NCBI RefSeq assembly: GCF_028607085.1
Contig: NZ_CP117411.1
Span: 930,001 to 994,000 of the forward strand
From: Sphingomonas naphthae
GTDB lineage: Bacteria > Pseudomonadota > Alphaproteobacteria > Sphingomonadales > Sphingomonadaceae
Reading direction: 5' to 3'
DNA length: 64,000 nt
Positions 24,314 through 30,332 of the stretch are shown here, one piece after another; within the stretch, counting starts at the first letter, position 1; each line of letters opens with the position of its first letter. The notes below the pieces were generated by a model. That model worked only from the letters and a program-made list of their open reading frames with translations, ran no database searches and was not told the DNA's origin. The position numbers and the translations under genes were made by a program.

Positions 24314-24769
24314 CTATCGCACCGTGCCGACCGCCCGCCGCGCCATGGCATCGAGAGACCAGGTGCCGCCGCCGCGCACGATCAGCGGTAGCAATATCGC
24401 GGCCCAACTAAGATGCGTCGGCCACGCATCGGGATAGACGAAGATCTCGATCGTCAGCGTCATCCCGAGCAGGGCGAGCGCCGAGAAGCGCGTCGCCAGC
24501 CCGAGCACGAGCAGGATGGAAAACAGATGCTCGGAATAGGTCGCCGCCACCGCCGCGATCTCGGGCGGCACGAGCGGCAGCGCATATTCGGTGCGGAACA
24601 GCTCGTAGGTGCCATCGGTGATGTGCAGCACGCCGTCGACCTTGGTGCGGCCCGACATGAAGAACACGGCGGCAATGCCAAGCCGGCCGATCAAAAGCAG
24701 CAGCGCATCGGGCACGCGCCTGCACAGGCTGCGGATCACGCAATCATAGCGCGCGACGAGCGAATTCAT
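24314..24769 (-). CDS. DoxX-family membrane protein
   Basis: The 151-residue product is a four-helix DoxX/DUF417-like membrane protein: [19 protein letters not shown] near residue 28, then [21 protein letters not shown] and [25 protein letters not shown]. DoxX proteins are standard partners in bufferin operons (often called BufD). ATG 24769 is preceded by GGAG 7 bases upstream. It follows bufA1 after a 59-bp gap with a hairpin and is transcribed from the same sigma-F promoter. Confidence 0.88.
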
Positions 24770-24828: not shown

Positions 24829-25107
24829 TCAGGCCTTGGGGGTTAGCGAACCGTTGCCCTTCGGGGTCTTGGTCGTCACGCACGAACCGGCCTTGACCAG
24901 CTTCCAGGCATTGCCCTGATAATTGACTTTAGACGTGCCCGCGCAACTCGTGCCCGCGCCTGCCTTGCAGTCGTTCTTGCCGGCGAGCGCGACGCCGTAG
25001 CATTTCTCCATACCGGGCTTTGTCTGGGCGGAAGCAGAGGTCGCGATGGCGGCGCTGGCGACGGCAATAGCAAGAATCGCGGCGAGCGAAGCATGAGTCG
25101 GACGCAT
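24829..25107 (-). CDS. bufA1: BufA1-family bufferin precursor (DUF2282)
   Basis: The 92-residue secreted protein has a signal peptide (cleavage after ATSASA near residue 27) and a DUF2282 core with four Cys: C36 in KCYGVA, C47 in KNDCKAG, C55 in GTSCAG and C76 in KAGSC. DUF2282 proteins are now known as bufferins: RiPPs whose Cys residues are converted to thiooxazole-type groups by a multinuclear iron oxidase (BufB) with BufC, and which buffer copper in the periplasm. It heads the minus-strand operon. A perfect GTAACC-N16-CGAA promoter lies about 107 bases before ATG 25107. Confidence 0.9.
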
Positions 25108-25213
25108 AGATAGGCTCCTCGGATGTCAGCCTCCTGGCGCGCGGCCCGACACAGAGTCGATCGGGCCGCGCGGCGATCCGGCCAGGAGGCGGGAAGCCGG
25201 ATCACACCAGCTA

Positions 25214-25239
25214 TTCGGGCACCCCGCCGGGTTGGTTAC
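25214..25239 (-). promoter_or_regulatory. sigma-F promoter for bufA1-doxX operon
   Basis: On the minus strand GTAACC (25239-25234), a 16-base spacer and CGAA (25217-25214) match the Caulobacter sigma-F -35/-10 elements exactly. It points toward bufA1 (start 25107), leaving a leader of about 100 bases. Confidence 0.85.
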
Positions 25240-25284
25240 ATACGTCGCCGGGTGACATTTTTCGGGCATTCTTCTGCGGATACT

Positions 25285-25310
25285 GTAACCATTGTTTCTT
25301 GTGAGCCGAA
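25285..25310 (+). promoter_or_regulatory. sigma-F promoter for sigF-nrsF (autoregulation)
   Basis: GTAACC (25285-25290), 16 bases and CGAA (25307-25310) match the sigma-F consensus exactly. The -10 element lies 19 bases before the sigF start at 25329, so the sigma factor drives its own gene. Confidence 0.88.
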
Positions 25311-25328
25311 TGCCTCGCGGGAGCGCGA

Positions 25329-25862
25329 ATGCGAGCGAGCGAGGACACATTGCGGGCTTTGATGATCAGCGGGCTCGACGGCGATGCCGGCGACCATGCC
25401 GCGCTGCTGCGCGCGCTCGTCCCGCTGCTGCAGGGCTTTTACCGACGACGCATGGGCGATGGAGAGATCGACGATCTTGTTCAGGAAACATTGATCGCGG
25501 TGCACACTCGCCGCGGCACCTACGATCGCGACCGCCCCTTTACGGCATGGTTGTTCTCAATCGCACGTTACAAGATGGTCGACCATTTCCGGCGTGGACG
25601 TAGGCTCGTGCCCATTGAGAGCCTTGAGGGGATTCTCGTTGCCGAAGGCTTCGAGGAGTCATGCCTCGCGCAAATGGACGTGGATCAGTTGTTGGAAATC
25701 CTGCCGCCCAAACAGGCGCGCATGATCCGAGCGACGCGCATCGACGGTCTCAGCACCGTCGAAGCCGCCGAGCGCGACGGCATCAGTGAATCTGACGTGA
25801 AAGTCTCCGTACATCGCGGCTTGAAATCGCTGATTACGCGCATCCAGGGAGGGCGTCGATGA
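25329..25862 (+). CDS. sigF: ECF sigma factor, SigF type
   Basis: The 177-residue product is an ECF sigma factor: region 2 with DLVQETLIAVHTRRGTYD and WLFSIARYKMVDHFRR, and region 4 with LPPKQARMIRATRIDGLS and AAERDGISESDVKVSVHRGL. The pairing with the NrsF anti-sigma gene, the three matching promoters and the controlled bufferin genes identify it as the SigF group known from Caulobacter, which responds to heavy metals such as copper, chromate and cadmium. ATG 25329 follows GGGAG at 5 bases. The stop overlaps the nrsF start (ATGA). Confidence 0.92.
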   Translation: MRASEDTLRALMISGLDGDAGDHAALLRALVPLLQGFYRRRMGDGEIDDLVQETLIAVHTRRGTYDRDRPFTAWLFSIARYKMVDHFRRGRRLVPIESLEGILVAEGFEESCLAQMDVDQLLEILPPKQARMIRATRIDGLSTVEAAERDGISESDVKVSVHRGLKSLITRIQGGRR

Positions 25863-26500
25863 ATACCGACGACCTAATCAGCCGCCTCGCGGCCGATGTC
25901 CCGCCCGTGCCCCGGCACGCCATCGGGCGACGCCTTACGATCGGCGTCGTGATGGGTATGCTCGTGTCGCTCTTCTATGTTGTCACGATGATGGGCGTTC
26001 GGCCCGATCTGCAGATCGCCGTGCACGGTTTCGCGTTCTGGATGAAATGGGCGTACACGATCTCGCTGTCGTTCGCCGCCGTCGTGGTGACTTCGCAGCT
26101 GGCGCGGCCTGACAGCGACAGGATGCGCTGGGTGTGGCTGGTGGCAATCCCCGTGCTGCTATTGGCGAGCGTCGGTGTGTGGGAACTGGTGCGGACGCCA
26201 CGTGCCGACTGGCTCGCCATGTGGCTTGGCGCGAGCTGGATGGTGTGTCCGTGGCGGGTGCTGGCGCTGGCGATGCCGATATTCGTTGGACTGTTGTGGT
26301 CGTTCCGCAAGCTCGCGCCGACGCGGCTGCGTGCGGCCGGTGCTGCGGCGGGACTGGCGGCCGGGGCGTTCGCCGCGACCGTCTACTGCGTCCACTGTCC
26401 GGAGGTCTCGGCGATCTTCGTGCTGACCTGGTACTCGCTCGGCATACTGCTCGCGACCACGCTCGGTGCGCTGCTCGGCCCGCGCCTGTTGCGGTGGTAA
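25859..26500 (+). CDS. nrsF: NrsF-family (DUF1109) membrane anti-sigma factor
   Basis: The 213-residue product has a short cytosolic N-terminus and six predicted membrane helices, the DUF1109/NrsF layout. Cys130 (WMVCPW) and Cys177/Cys180 (YCVHCPE) sit near the positions of the two Cys residues (131 and 181) reported as essential for signal sensing in the Caulobacter homologue. It should hold SigF at the membrane and release it on metal or redox stress. It overlaps sigF by 4 bases, and the bufA2 promoter begins 15 bases after its stop. Confidence 0.92.
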   Translation: MNTDDLISRLAADVPPVPRHAIGRRLTIGVVMGMLVSLFYVVTMMGVRPDLQIAVHGFAFWMKWAYTISLSFAAVVVTSQLARPDSDRMRWVWLVAIPVLLLASVGVWELVRTPRADWLAMWLGASWMVCPWRVLALAMPIFVGLLWSFRKLAPTRLRAAGAAAGLAAGAFAATVYCVHCPEVSAIFVLTWYSLGILLATTLGALLGPRLLRW

Positions 26501-26514
26501 TTTTTCCGGCGGGT

Positions 26515-26540
26515 GTAACCACCGTCCCATCGACAGCGAA
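26515..26540 (+). promoter_or_regulatory. sigma-F promoter for bufA2-bufB-bufC-P460
   Basis: GTAACC (26515-26520), a 16-base spacer and CGAA (26537-26540) form a third perfect sigma-F site. The bufA2 start is at 26584, giving a leader of about 36 bases. Confidence 0.88.
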
Positions 26541-26583
26541 GGAATAGAGCCAATCTGGCCGTACGTCTTTCTGGAGAACCATC

Positions 26584-26841
26584 ATGACCATTCTTCGTAA
26601 CAGCGTGAGTTTCGCCGCCGCCGCCGCCGTGGTCGCTATTGCAGCCGCCGCCCCGACCGCTGCGTTCGCCAAAGGCGCCGCCAAGATTCATTGCTACGGC
26701 ATCAACTCGTGCAAGGGCACGTCGGACTGCAAGTCGGGTACGCACGAATGCAAGGGCCAGAACGACTGCAAGGGCCAAGGCTTCAAGGAAATCTCGGCGA
26801 AGGCCTGCACGGCGCAGCACGGCAGCACCTCGCCGAAGTGA
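26584..26841 (+). CDS. bufA2: BufA2-family bufferin precursor
   Basis: The 85-residue product has a signal peptide ending near AAFA (residue 29) and a short core with six Cys (37, 43, 49, 56, 62, 75), most in CKG/CKS-type repeats spaced 6-7 residues apart: INSCKGTSDCKSG, then HECKGQNDCKGQG. This is the BufA2 subtype of bufferin RiPPs, distinct from the four-Cys BufA1 at 24829-25107. It is the first gene of the operon with the modifying enzymes bufB and bufC. ATG 26584 follows GGAGA. Confidence 0.9.
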   Translation: MTILRNSVSFAAAAAVVAIAAAAPTAAFAKGAAKIHCYGINSCKGTSDCKSGTHECKGQNDCKGQGFKEISAKACTAQHGSTSPK

Positions 26842-26858
26842 TCGGCCAGCATCGTACT

Positions 26859-26922
26859 GATCGACGAGCTTCGTCGATCTAACTCACGACCCGGGCGTCC
26901 AAAGACGTCCGGGCCGACTTTT
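26859..26922 (+). terminator. double hairpin after bufA2 (attenuator)
   Basis: Two stems follow bufA2: GATCGACGA/TCGTCGATC (26859-26867 with 26871-26879, 3-base loop) and CCCGGGCGTC/GACGTCCGGG (26890-26899 with 26904-26913, one G-T pair), the latter followed by CCGACTTTT. This resembles a partial terminator that would make much more precursor mRNA than bufB-bufC mRNA. Confidence 0.6.
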
Positions 26923-26940
26923 CGCCGAGAGATTGCGTGC

Positions 26941-27771
26941 ATGACCATTCCCTTTGCCGGTTACGGCCTCGGCCTGCGCAAACCGCACTATGCCGATTTC
27001 CTCGATGGCTACGTCGATGTCGATTTCGTCGAGGTGATCTCCGAGAATTTCATGGTACCCGGCGGCCGTCCGCGCCAGATCCTGCGCGGCGTCCGCGCGC
27101 GCCACCCGGTCGCGCTGCACGGCGTATCGATGTCCATCGGCTCGGCCGACGGTCTCGACGGCGCCTATCTGACGCGACTGCGCGCGCTGGTTGACGAGAT
27201 CGAACCACTGTTCGTCTCTGATCATCTCAGCTGGTCGCGGATCGAGGGCTTCAATTCGCACGACCTGCTGCCGCTGCCTTATACTGAGGAAGCGCTCGAC
27301 CTCGTATGCGCGAACGTCGATCGCGCGCAGGATGCGCTCGGTCGAACCATGCTGATCGAGAACCCGTCCAGCTACATCGACTTTGCACCAGCCGACATGA
27401 CAGAATGGCAATTCCTCGATCGGGTTTGCGGGCGGACCGATTGTGGTCTGTTGCTCGACGTCAACAATGTATTCGTCAGCGCGACCAATCACGGCTTTGA
27501 TCCGATCGCCTATCTGGACGGTGTCCCGCACGATCGTGTCCGCCAGATCCATCTCGCCGGGCACAGCCAGGGCAAAGAATTGCTGATCGACACGCACGAC
27601 AAGCCGGTGCCGACGTCGGTTTGGGATCTGTACGCGCACGTGATCCCACGCCTCGGTGCGGTCGCGACGATGATCGAGCGCGACGACGACATTCCGCCGC
27701 TTGCTGATCTGTTGAGCGAACTTGGTACCGCACGCCAGATCGGCGGCAAGATGCTGGCGCGCGCGGCGTGA
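26941..27771 (+). CDS. bufB: BufB, multinuclear non-heme iron oxidase (DUF692/MNIO)
   Basis: The 276-residue product is a DUF692 TIM-barrel: YGLGLRKPHYADFL near residue 8, VEVISENFMVPGG near 31, LHGVSMSIGSADGLD near 59, FVSDHLSWSR near 91, IENPSSYIDF near 139, LLLDVNNVFVSATNHG near 174 and QIHLAGHSQG near 203, which carry the His/Asp/Glu iron ligands. MNIO enzymes modify Cys in RiPP precursors. In bufferin operons they act on BufA with BufC as partner. Its GTGA overlap with bufC shows coupling. It is the only MNIO gene in the window, so it probably serves both precursors. Confidence 0.93.
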   Translation: MTIPFAGYGLGLRKPHYADFLDGYVDVDFVEVISENFMVPGGRPRQILRGVRARHPVALHGVSMSIGSADGLDGAYLTRLRALVDEIEPLFVSDHLSWSRIEGFNSHDLLPLPYTEEALDLVCANVDRAQDALGRTMLIENPSSYIDFAPADMTEWQFLDRVCGRTDCGLLLDVNNVFVSATNHGFDPIAYLDGVPHDRVRQIHLAGHSQGKELLIDTHDKPVPTSVWDLYAHVIPRLGAVATMIERDDDIPPLADLLSELGTARQIGGKMLARAA

Positions 27772-28514
27772 GCCTCCTTGCCCTCCAGCGCGATTTCAGG
27801 GCGTGGCTCGTCGATGAGGACGCGGGTGCGGCCCGGCGCCTCGGCGTGTCGGCCGTACCGGGTCTCGGGGTCTACCAGAACAATTACCGCGCGCAGCTTG
27901 TCGCCTGCCTTGAGGAGACTTTCGCACGCACGCGCGATTGGATCGGCGGCGGCGCATTTCACGAAGCGGTCATCACGCATATCGCCCGCGTGCCGCCGAA
28001 CAACTGGACACTTGACGCCTATCCGCGCGATTTCCCGGCAACGCTGGCGATGCTCTATCCGGACGATGCCGAGGTCGCGGAACTTGCCTGGATCGATCTT
28101 GCGCTCGGCGAGGCTTTTGTCGGCCCCGATGCGGTCGCGCTGACGACGGAGGAGCTGCCAGGCGTCGATTGGGACACGGCGATCCTGCGCTTGACCCCGA
28201 CGCTCGATCTTGCCGATCTCACCACCAACGCGACGGCGATCTGGTCGGCGCTTGCCGAGGGAGAAGTGCCCCCCGCGGTCGAGGCACTTCCGCAGACCGG
28301 TGCCATCCTGGTATGGCGACAAGGGCTGTCCGCGCAGTTCCGCGCGATCGATCACTACGAGCGCCAGGCGCTTTTGTCGGCACGTGACGGCCTGTCGTTC
28401 GCGGAATTGTGCGACGTGATGGTGGCCTCCCGGGGCGAGACCGAGGGCATCGCCCGTGCTGGCGCATTGCTAGGACGATGGGTCGCCGACGGGCTGATCG
28501 TCGCGACGCAATGA
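27768..28514 (+). CDS. bufC: BufC, DUF2063-type RiPP partner protein
   Basis: The 248-residue product begins LLALQRDFRAWLVDED and has GLGVYQNNYRAQLVACLEETFARTRDW near residue 29, the classical DUF2063 (once 'putative DNA-binding') domain that pairs with MNIO enzymes and recognises the precursor, followed by a C-terminal winged-helix-like region (LSFAELCDVMVASRG). GTG 27768 overlaps the bufB stop. The cytochrome P460 gene follows after 10 bases. Confidence 0.9.
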   Translation: MSLLALQRDFRAWLVDEDAGAARRLGVSAVPGLGVYQNNYRAQLVACLEETFARTRDWIGGGAFHEAVITHIARVPPNNWTLDAYPRDFPATLAMLYPDDAEVAELAWIDLALGEAFVGPDAVALTTEELPGVDWDTAILRLTPTLDLADLTTNATAIWSALAEGEVPPAVEALPQTGAILVWRQGLSAQFRAIDHYERQALLSARDGLSFAELCDVMVASRGETEGIARAGALLGRWVADGLIVATQ

Positions 28515-28987
28515 TGGGGTCATCATGCGATTAAAGGTTCTGCTAACCGGTGCAGTAGCGATAAGCGGGGCGCTCGCGTTTCGCGCTGCTCAGGGCAATG
28601 CTCGCGCTGCTGCCGCGACTGGCGGAACGCCCGCTTACACGAAGGGTGGCCGATTGATTGTTCCGGCCGATTACCGCGAATGGGTGTTCCTCTCGTCGGG
28701 TATCGACACGAGCTATACCGAGCGCCCGGTGCACCAGTTCGACAATGTGTTTGCGCCGCGCGATGCCTATCGCGCTTTTCTCAAGACCGGCGTCTGGCCC
28801 GACAAGACGGTGCTGATCGTCGAAAATCGCGCGGTGGAGACCAAGGGTTCGATCACCAGATCCGGCCAGTTCCAGACCAGTGGCGTGATTGGACTAGAGC
28901 GTGCTGCGGATAGATTGAATCGATTGGGGATTCCCGACGGTCGCTGGATGTGATTCAAGCTGCTGGCTGGCGAGGAGGTCAGTCAGA

Positions 28988-29368
28988 ATGGCACGAGCCT
29001 ATTCGCAAGATTTGAGGGACCGGGTGATCGATGCGGTGCTGCGTGGCGGAGAGAGCCGGCGGTCTGCGTCGCGGCGCTTCGGGGTAAGCGAGGCCTCGGC
29101 GATCAAATGGGTGCAGCGGGTCGAGCGGCTGGGTGACCGGCGGTGCGCCGGCACTGGCGGGCACCGTCCCTCGAAGGTGAAGCCGGAGCGCGACTGGTTG
29201 CTGGCGACGATCGCGGAGGAGCCCGACATCACACTGGCGGCCCTGTCGGCCCGGCTACTGGCCGAGCGCGGCGTACGGGCGGACACCGGCATGCTGTCGC
29301 GCTTCTTCACCGGCGAAGGCATCAGCTTCAAAAAAAACCGTGCTGCCCAGCGAGCAGGACCGGCGTGA
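28988..29368 (+). CDS. IS630 transposase, first frame (HTH part)
   Basis: The 126-residue frame begins [20 protein letters not shown] and contains the Tc1/IS630-type helix-turn-helix regions ([19 protein letters not shown]) and a second winged-helix part ([21 protein letters not shown]). The frame ends shortly after a run of eight A (29330-29337). The catalytic domain is in the next frame, so a programmed ribosomal or transcriptional frameshift at this A-run should make the full enzyme. Confidence 0.9.
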
Positions 29369-29936
29369 CGTTGCCCGCCGGCGGGCGAGCTGGAAACGGT
29401 ATCAGGGCAAGCTCGATCCCCGGCGGCTGGTCTTTATCGACGAGACCTGGGCCAAGACCAACATGACGCGCACCCATGGGCGTTGTCGGCGCGGGGAGCG
29501 TCTCCATGCCAAGGTGCCGCATGGCCACTGGAAGACGCTGACTTTCCTGGCGGCGCTCCGCCACGACCGGATCGATGCACCTGCGGTGATCGATGGCCCG
29601 ATCAACGGCAAAAGCTTCCTCGCCTACGTCGAGCAAATCCTCATCCCGACGCTTGGCCCCGGCGACATCGTCATCCTCGACAATCTCGGCAGCCACAAAG
29701 GTGAGGCTGTGCGCAGCGCCATCCGGGCCGCAGGTGCAAGGCTACTGTTCCTTCCGCCCTACAGCCCAGACCTCAACCCGATCGAGCAGGTCTTCGCCAA
29801 GCTCAAGACGCTCCTCCGCAAGGCCGCAGAGCGCACTGTCGAAACCACATGGCGACGCATCGGATCGCTCCTCGACGCCTTCTACCCGTCCGAATGCGCC
29901 AATTACCTCGTCAACTCCGGCTATGCTTCAATCTAA
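29340..29936 (+). CDS. IS630 transposase, second frame (DDE catalytic part)
   Basis: The 198-residue frame carries the catalytic triad of the IS630 family: Asp in [12 protein letters not shown], Asp in [12 protein letters not shown] and Glu in [16 protein letters not shown]. It overlaps the first frame by 29 bases. In its own frame, coding sequence continues upstream to the A-run, which supports a fused product through frameshifting rather than separate translation. Confidence 0.9.
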
Positions 29937-30332
29937 TAACAGAATGCTCTAGAGGCGCATGTGAAGGACAAGGCGCGGTTCAAAGGTGGCTGGGGATTCT
30001 TCGGCGCAAAAGGCGAAATGTTTCCATACACCGCCAATTGCTATGCCTGCCATCAGCAGCATGCCGCCGCCAACACCACCTTCGTGCAATTCTACCCGAC
30101 GCTCCTTCCGGCGGCGACGCGTCTCAAAACGCTTAGCCCAGCCTACCTGGCGGACCTTGCACGGCTCGCCAAAAAGTGATGTGAAACTAGCCGAATTTTG
30201 CCGAAATTCGGGGTGTCCGGATCGATGGGTCGCGGATACTGCGAGGAGTGACACACCAGCACATGGTACGATCTGACCTGCTCCCCGGAAATCATGCCAT
30301 TGGTAGGTTAGCTCGTCAGATGGAGACGAGCG

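Follow-up and report, generated by a model that had tools for sequence, protein, structure and literature searches.

A bufferin locus of Sphingomonas naphthae with putative sigma-F/NrsF control, a single maturase and a covarying bufA1 leader

Described systems and the S. naphthae locus

Bufferins are a recently recognised and very widespread class of metal-binding peptides, located in the periplasm by published work (PMC12452194). A bufferin locus was analysed within a stretch of 64,000 nt (hereafter the window) of the 4.3 Mb genome of Sphingomonas naphthae. It contains two precursor genes, bufA1 and bufA2, the maturation genes bufB and bufC, and sigF-nrsF, coding for a sigma factor and its anti-sigma protein. 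We hold it to be highly probable that this is a sphingomonad locus controlled by sigma-F and NrsF, with a conserved folded leader in front of bufA1, working by the mechanism proposed below. The system is of a known kind in a mixed arrangement, and its main interest lies in the folded leader and in the presence of two precursors.

The closest described system is the sigma-F regulon of Caulobacter crescentus (CC3252-CC3257, CC2905-CC2907 and CC2748), where an extracytoplasmic function (ECF) sigma factor and a two-Cys NrsF protein control DUF2282, MNIO, DUF2063 and DoxX targets. The promoter element, GTAACC-N16-CGAA, was mapped there by 5'RACE (rapid amplification of cDNA ends) and primer extension; NrsF acts negatively, and its two Cys are required (PMC3511200). 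The regulon is induced by copper, to which a sigF::Tn5 mutant is sensitive (PMC8224329). All the components named are also found in S. naphthae. In Caulobacter, however, the precursors CC3254 and CC2907 each head an operon with an MNIO of their own, and a sulfoxide reductase is a further target, whereas in S. naphthae one MNIO lies beside BufA2, the divergent BufA1 has none of its own, and all strict promoter sites are placed at one locus. The locus likewise shares with the Buf1 and Buf2 bufferins, or captophorins, the precursor types, the MNIO, the PME-type-1 partner, the DoxX protein and the Asp that marks Buf2 maturases (PMC12452194, PMC13097082). It differs from the surveyed clusters in that sigF-nrsF adjoins a Buf2 cluster and the gene for a Buf1 precursor is transcribed divergently.

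Profile searches bear out the gene assignments of a first-pass annotation of this DNA (DUF2282/BufA1, ECF sigma factor, NrsF, BufA2, MNIO/BufB and DUF2063/BufC). On the minus strand, bufA1 (24829..25107) codes for a Buf1-type precursor of 92 amino acids with Cys at positions 36, 47, 55 and 76 (Pfam DUF2282, 80.3 bits). On the plus strand, sigF (25329..25862; Pfam sigma-70 region 2 and region 4_2; PRK12539, 171.1 bits) is followed by nrsF (25859..26500), whose product is the anti-sigma-F membrane protein (Pfam NrsF, 250 bits). Further along the same strand lie bufA2 (26584..26841), coding for a Buf2-type precursor of 85 amino acids with six Cys and four Cys-Lys motifs (NF050166, 100.8 bits, cut-off 60), bufB (26941..27771), coding for an MNIO bufferin maturase of the Buf2 (Cys-Lys) type (NF050167, 375.8 bits, cut-off 310), and bufC (27768..28514), coding for the DUF2063 partner protein (Pfam DUF2063, 59 bits). 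A six-Cys BufA2, an MNIO and a DUF2063 partner in a single operon identify a Buf2 cluster. Hydrophobic N-termini are visible in the BufA precursors. The left edge of the cluster is refined by a gene for a DoxX/HvfX-like membrane protein, located 3' of bufA1 on the minus strand (24314..24769; Pfam DoxX, 64 bits; NCBIfam HvfX, 50.5 bits, under its cut-off of 80), as a doxX-type gene adjoins bufA1 in nearly all relatives.

Three main forms of the locus were found in the sampled family. In Form I, the one seen here, doxX-bufA1 is divergent from sigF-nrsF, which is followed by bufA2-bufB-bufC; in Form II, nrsF-sigF-doxX-bufA1 is divergent from bufA2-bufB-bufC; Form III reads bufA1-bufB-bufC-doxX-sigF-nrsF. 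In the first two forms the cluster is mixed, and the sole nearby MNIO follows bufA2. In a published survey, sigma/NrsF genes were assigned to Buf1 and not to Buf2 clusters (PMC12452194). Since mixed clusters may have been counted there as Buf1, our finding is a refinement of that picture, not a proven contradiction: in sphingomonads, sigma-F/NrsF accompanies mixed Buf1/Buf2 clusters.

Sigma-F sites and NrsF

Exactly three mismatch-free GTAACC-N16-CGAA sites were found in the window by pattern search, against 0.03 expected, and none of 100 shuffles reached this number. They head bufA1 (25214..25239, minus strand), sigF-nrsF (25285..25310, plus strand) and bufA2-bufB-bufC (26515..26540, plus strand), just as the first-pass annotation had it, and the equation it made with the Caulobacter sigma-F site agrees with the 5'RACE-mapped element (PMC3511200). 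The whole genome contains four exact matches, the fourth (C1:495101-495126) being antisense within the ligA reading frame. If spacings of 15 to 17 are allowed, the motif is found 10 times in the genome, against 12 for a backward control; the signal is therefore one of position and not of abundance. A wider sigma-F regulon was rejected on these grounds. By the strict motif the regulon is a single locus, which fits its earlier description as self-contained.

In order to evaluate conservation, we searched 31 sphingomonad loci of identical gene order and counted the matches that had spacing 16 and no more than one mismatch. A site precedes bufA1 in 30, sigF in 30 and bufA2 in all 31 of them, whereas spacings 13-15 and 17-19 gave 0-2 matches each and the backward motif none. 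The recurrence of sites at the three positions in related loci supports them as functional promoters. It also marks the arrangement as common in sphingomonads, so that its occurrence outside Caulobacter, pointed out in the first-pass annotation as a regulon in a different genus, loses its novelty. Sigma-F control of bufferins is already known and widespread, and the sigma-F reading of the present locus is well supported by homology.

The two Cys of NrsF, Cys130 and Cys180, are invariant in all 89 aligned sequences and are equivalent to C131 and C181 of the Caulobacter protein. With 164.9 bits against the required 300, the protein falls short of the NCBIfam equivalog for NrsF and is therefore taken as a family member and not as a close copy of the Caulobacter one. 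An ECF sigma factor is thus encoded together with a two-Cys NrsF-family protein, with GTAACC-N16-CGAA in front of the targets, as in a sigma-F/NrsF system. As to the proposal that the locus is a metal-sensing regulon, the sites and both Cys hold up by conservation, while the response to metal or copper would follow by homology to Caulobacter.

A second NrsF-family protein (G000:C1:2394094-2394702, locus L013) is encoded with an ECF sigma factor of its own, with a one-mismatch sigma-F element upstream. In loci L060, L061, L063 and L068, sigF-nrsF is accompanied by sigma-F-like sites, which in three of the loci also occur in divergent orientation, and no buf genes are found nearby in the available DNA; here the sigF-nrsF switch may drive other targets.

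The bufA1 leader

The most unusual feature of the locus, unnoticed in the first-pass annotation, is the long leader of bufA1. The distance from the -10 element to the start codon is 106 bases, and about 100-112 in most relatives. The predicted leader (25108..25207, minus strand, start placed from the promoter) folds with a z-score of -4.34. It contains helix A (25205-25198/25180-25173; GTGAYC.../...GRTCAC) and helix B (25172-25161/25149-25138; GCGCGGCCCG/CGGGCCGCGC). Helix C (25190-25184/25135-25129) would form between GCCTCC, in the loop of A, and GGAGGC, located 3' of B; because it interleaves with A, a pseudoknot is predicted. The Shine-Dalgarno sequence lies at about 25120-25115, on the same strand.

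In 20 aligned leaders, pairing is possible in 89% of the cells of helices A and B; sliding the partners lowers this share to 36-42%. Six pairs, four of them in helix A, are changed on both sides. Pairing was also evaluated, independently of helix counting, by comparing cognate with swapped arms in 21 dissimilar sequences: the cognate pair was better, with 0 of 5000 swaps for A, 0 of 5000 for B and 1-4 of 5000 for C, against 721 of 5000 for a negative control. Because helix C is absent from the alignment model, its test is unbiased by the alignment. Taken at the level of sequence comparison, the leader thus appears as a covarying, conserved folded RNA, made of two hairpins plus a pseudoknot pairing.

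A covariance model of helices A and B matches the window leader with an E-value of 4e-16, the sole strong match in the genome. In 299 genomes of the family 11 matches were found, all 11 directly upstream of a DUF2282 gene and on the same strand; in 289 sampled genomes of the class, the matches were the S. naphthae genome and a marginal one. The fold is common but not indispensable, since it is missing from six relatives that possess the same locus and whose leaders measure 52-75 bases. A search of Rfam 15 gave no match to the leader at E-values up to 1. The only Rfam match for any RNA at the locus, asX1, scored below threshold (28.5 against 70 bits) and was taken as chance. Literature searches found no paper combining DUF2282 with Sphingomonas, nor, among the matches listed, any combining DUF2282 with riboswitch, structured RNA or leader RNA; the leader RNA is apparently previously undescribed.

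Among loci of the nrsF-sigF-doxX-bufA1 form, L020, L025, L026, L032, L033 and L040 have bufA1 leaders of 66-85 bases. A hairpin rich in C and G, with CCCC behind it, is common to these leaders and may represent another kind of folded element.

Proposed mechanism, alternative readings and neighbouring features

By analogy with Caulobacter, sigma-F would be held at the membrane by NrsF until excess copper, or perhaps other thiophilic metals, acts on the two conserved Cys of NrsF and frees it. Free sigma-F would transcribe three units, namely sigF-nrsF, bufA1 (probably with doxX) and bufA2-bufB-bufC. BufB and BufC would then oxidise Cys of BufA2, and probably also of BufA1, to metal-binding thiooxazoles, and the modified precursors would be exported by the Sec pathway to the periplasm. 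The bufA1 transcript would begin with the folded RNA, immediately followed by an exposed ribosome-binding site. Some points weigh against this account. Transcription, NrsF release, the metal response and modification in S. naphthae are argued from Caulobacter and from homology; the transcription start of bufA1 is deduced from the -10 element; the leaders used to train the covariance model were picked for their position before bufA1 and are GC-rich; and, given the Buf2 type of BufB, one can only guess that it acts on BufA1. That another factor drives transcription, the sites not being sigma-F promoters here, nevertheless seems scarcely credible to us: their use is deduced from homology rather than from transcripts of this genome, but exact spacing, position and three-fold conservation beside a linked sigma/anti-sigma pair all favour sigma-F. 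Nor do we think it probable that the inverted repeats of the leader are a DNA-level feature, either an operator or a by-product of GC-rich palindromes. It is true that the palindromic arms have a very high GC content and that the set includes many related sequences. On the bufA1 strand, however, G.U pairs outnumber A.C pairs by 25 to 6, which favours an RNA of this strand over a DNA palindrome; moreover, the three pairings are interleaved in pseudoknot fashion and all fall within the transcribed leader, with matches nowhere else in the family genomes.

If the leader is an RNA element, its most likely role is to determine the life-time or the translation of the bufA1 mRNA. A simple lid on the ribosome-binding site was considered and rejected, the predicted openness of the Shine-Dalgarno sequence being 0.49 with the leader and 0.53 without it (secondary structure prediction, pseudoknot excluded). 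No U-run is present behind helix B, where CCAGGAGGC follows, so the leader lacks the mark of an intrinsic terminator or attenuator. As the Shine-Dalgarno sequence is about equally open and the U-run is missing, lid and terminator are both unlikely, and the predictions point to RNA stability or conditional control as likelier than simple occlusion. The plain reading is a passive stabiliser at the 5' end, shielding an abundant mRNA from decay with neither ligand nor switch, and we judge its chances to be about even. It is favoured by helix A beginning a few bases from the predicted transcript start, as well as by the openness values and the missing U-run; one hairpin would suffice for such a role, yet the pseudoknot pairing has been maintained while the sequence changed, and the six relatives with short leaders do without the fold. 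A conditional switch, in which the pseudoknot would respond to a metal, redox or precursor/maturase signal and the leader would be a new class of cis-regulatory RNA, is possible but unsupported, and appears unlikely. If true, it would add a post-transcriptional layer over sigma-F, the precursor being made only when it can be matured. A pseudoknot between a loop and a 3' stretch near the ribosome-binding site is known from the SAM-II and preQ1-II riboswitches. The bufA1 leader is alike in shape only: it has no Rfam match, and its Shine-Dalgarno sequence is not predicted to be masked.

The fate of BufA1 is less evident than that of BufA2. BufB is the sole MNIO of the genome, and BufA1 is the product of its sole DUF2282 gene. 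An Asp after the catalytic Asp is found in 55 of 57 MNIOs encoded directly behind bufA2, against 1 of 20 behind bufA1. The window BufB has it (IERDD, at the site of FonB Phe250), and the same Asp has been described for Cys-Lys MNIOs (PMC13097082); BufB is therefore assigned to the Buf2 type. BufA1 is a four-Cys DUF2282 precursor, as in Buf1 bufferins, and a Buf1-type MNIO to modify it is lacking. Because the sole MNIO is of the Buf2 type, BufA1 is filed as a Buf1-type precursor and not as a proven Buf1 bufferin. The first-pass annotation had called the locus complete, which is right insofar as precursors, MNIO and partner are present, and needs the qualification that two precursor types share one Buf2-type MNIO. 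Either BufB serves both precursors or BufA1 works unmodified. In the latter case BufA1 would be exported as a plain Cys metal-binding protein, leaving BufA2 as the only true bufferin; we regard this as a serious possibility, though not the expected one. The Buf2 mark of the sole MNIO speaks for it, and the survey authors themselves allow for a lack of modification in unlinked precursors (PMC12452194). Against it, the four Cys of BufA1, among them the central two, which undergo modification in Buf1, are kept in all 55 loci with no directly linked MNIO, and DUF2282 occurs almost only in genomes with an MNIO. A Cys-Lys signature in BufA1, which might have explained its use by a Buf2-type MNIO, was rejected, DCK being present in linked and unlinked BufA1 alike and thus not diagnostic. 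With a single MNIO and one precursor of each type, the locus offers a direct test of one maturase serving both precursor families, as well as of the role of the conserved folded leader.

In one relative (L080, genome G214), bufA1, sigF, nrsF and bufA2 are present, bufB-bufC are not found behind bufA2, and the genome's MNIO is encoded on another contig.

The gap between bufA2 and bufB (26842-26940) shows strong folding and hairpins, here and in most related loci. Two hairpins are found on the plus strand, at 26859-26879 and about 26890-26913, with a perfect 9-bp inverted repeat; by partial termination or RNA processing, they may keep the precursor in excess over the enzyme.

Directly behind bufC lies a cytochrome P460 gene, found among the loci examined only in S. 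naphthae and Sphingomonas glacialis (L043). In L043 the gene is unbroken; in S. naphthae an IS630-like element, inserted at a CTAG target, splits it ahead of the haem motif. Its 5' part (28525..28953, plus strand) covers positions 1-61 of 125 of the Pfam Cytochrome_P460 profile. The insertion, of about 1.05 kb (28900..29948, plus strand; break points from the L043 alignment), contains transposase-like reading frames. The 3' part (29949..30179, plus strand) carries the CxxCH haem motif and is 85% identical to L043.

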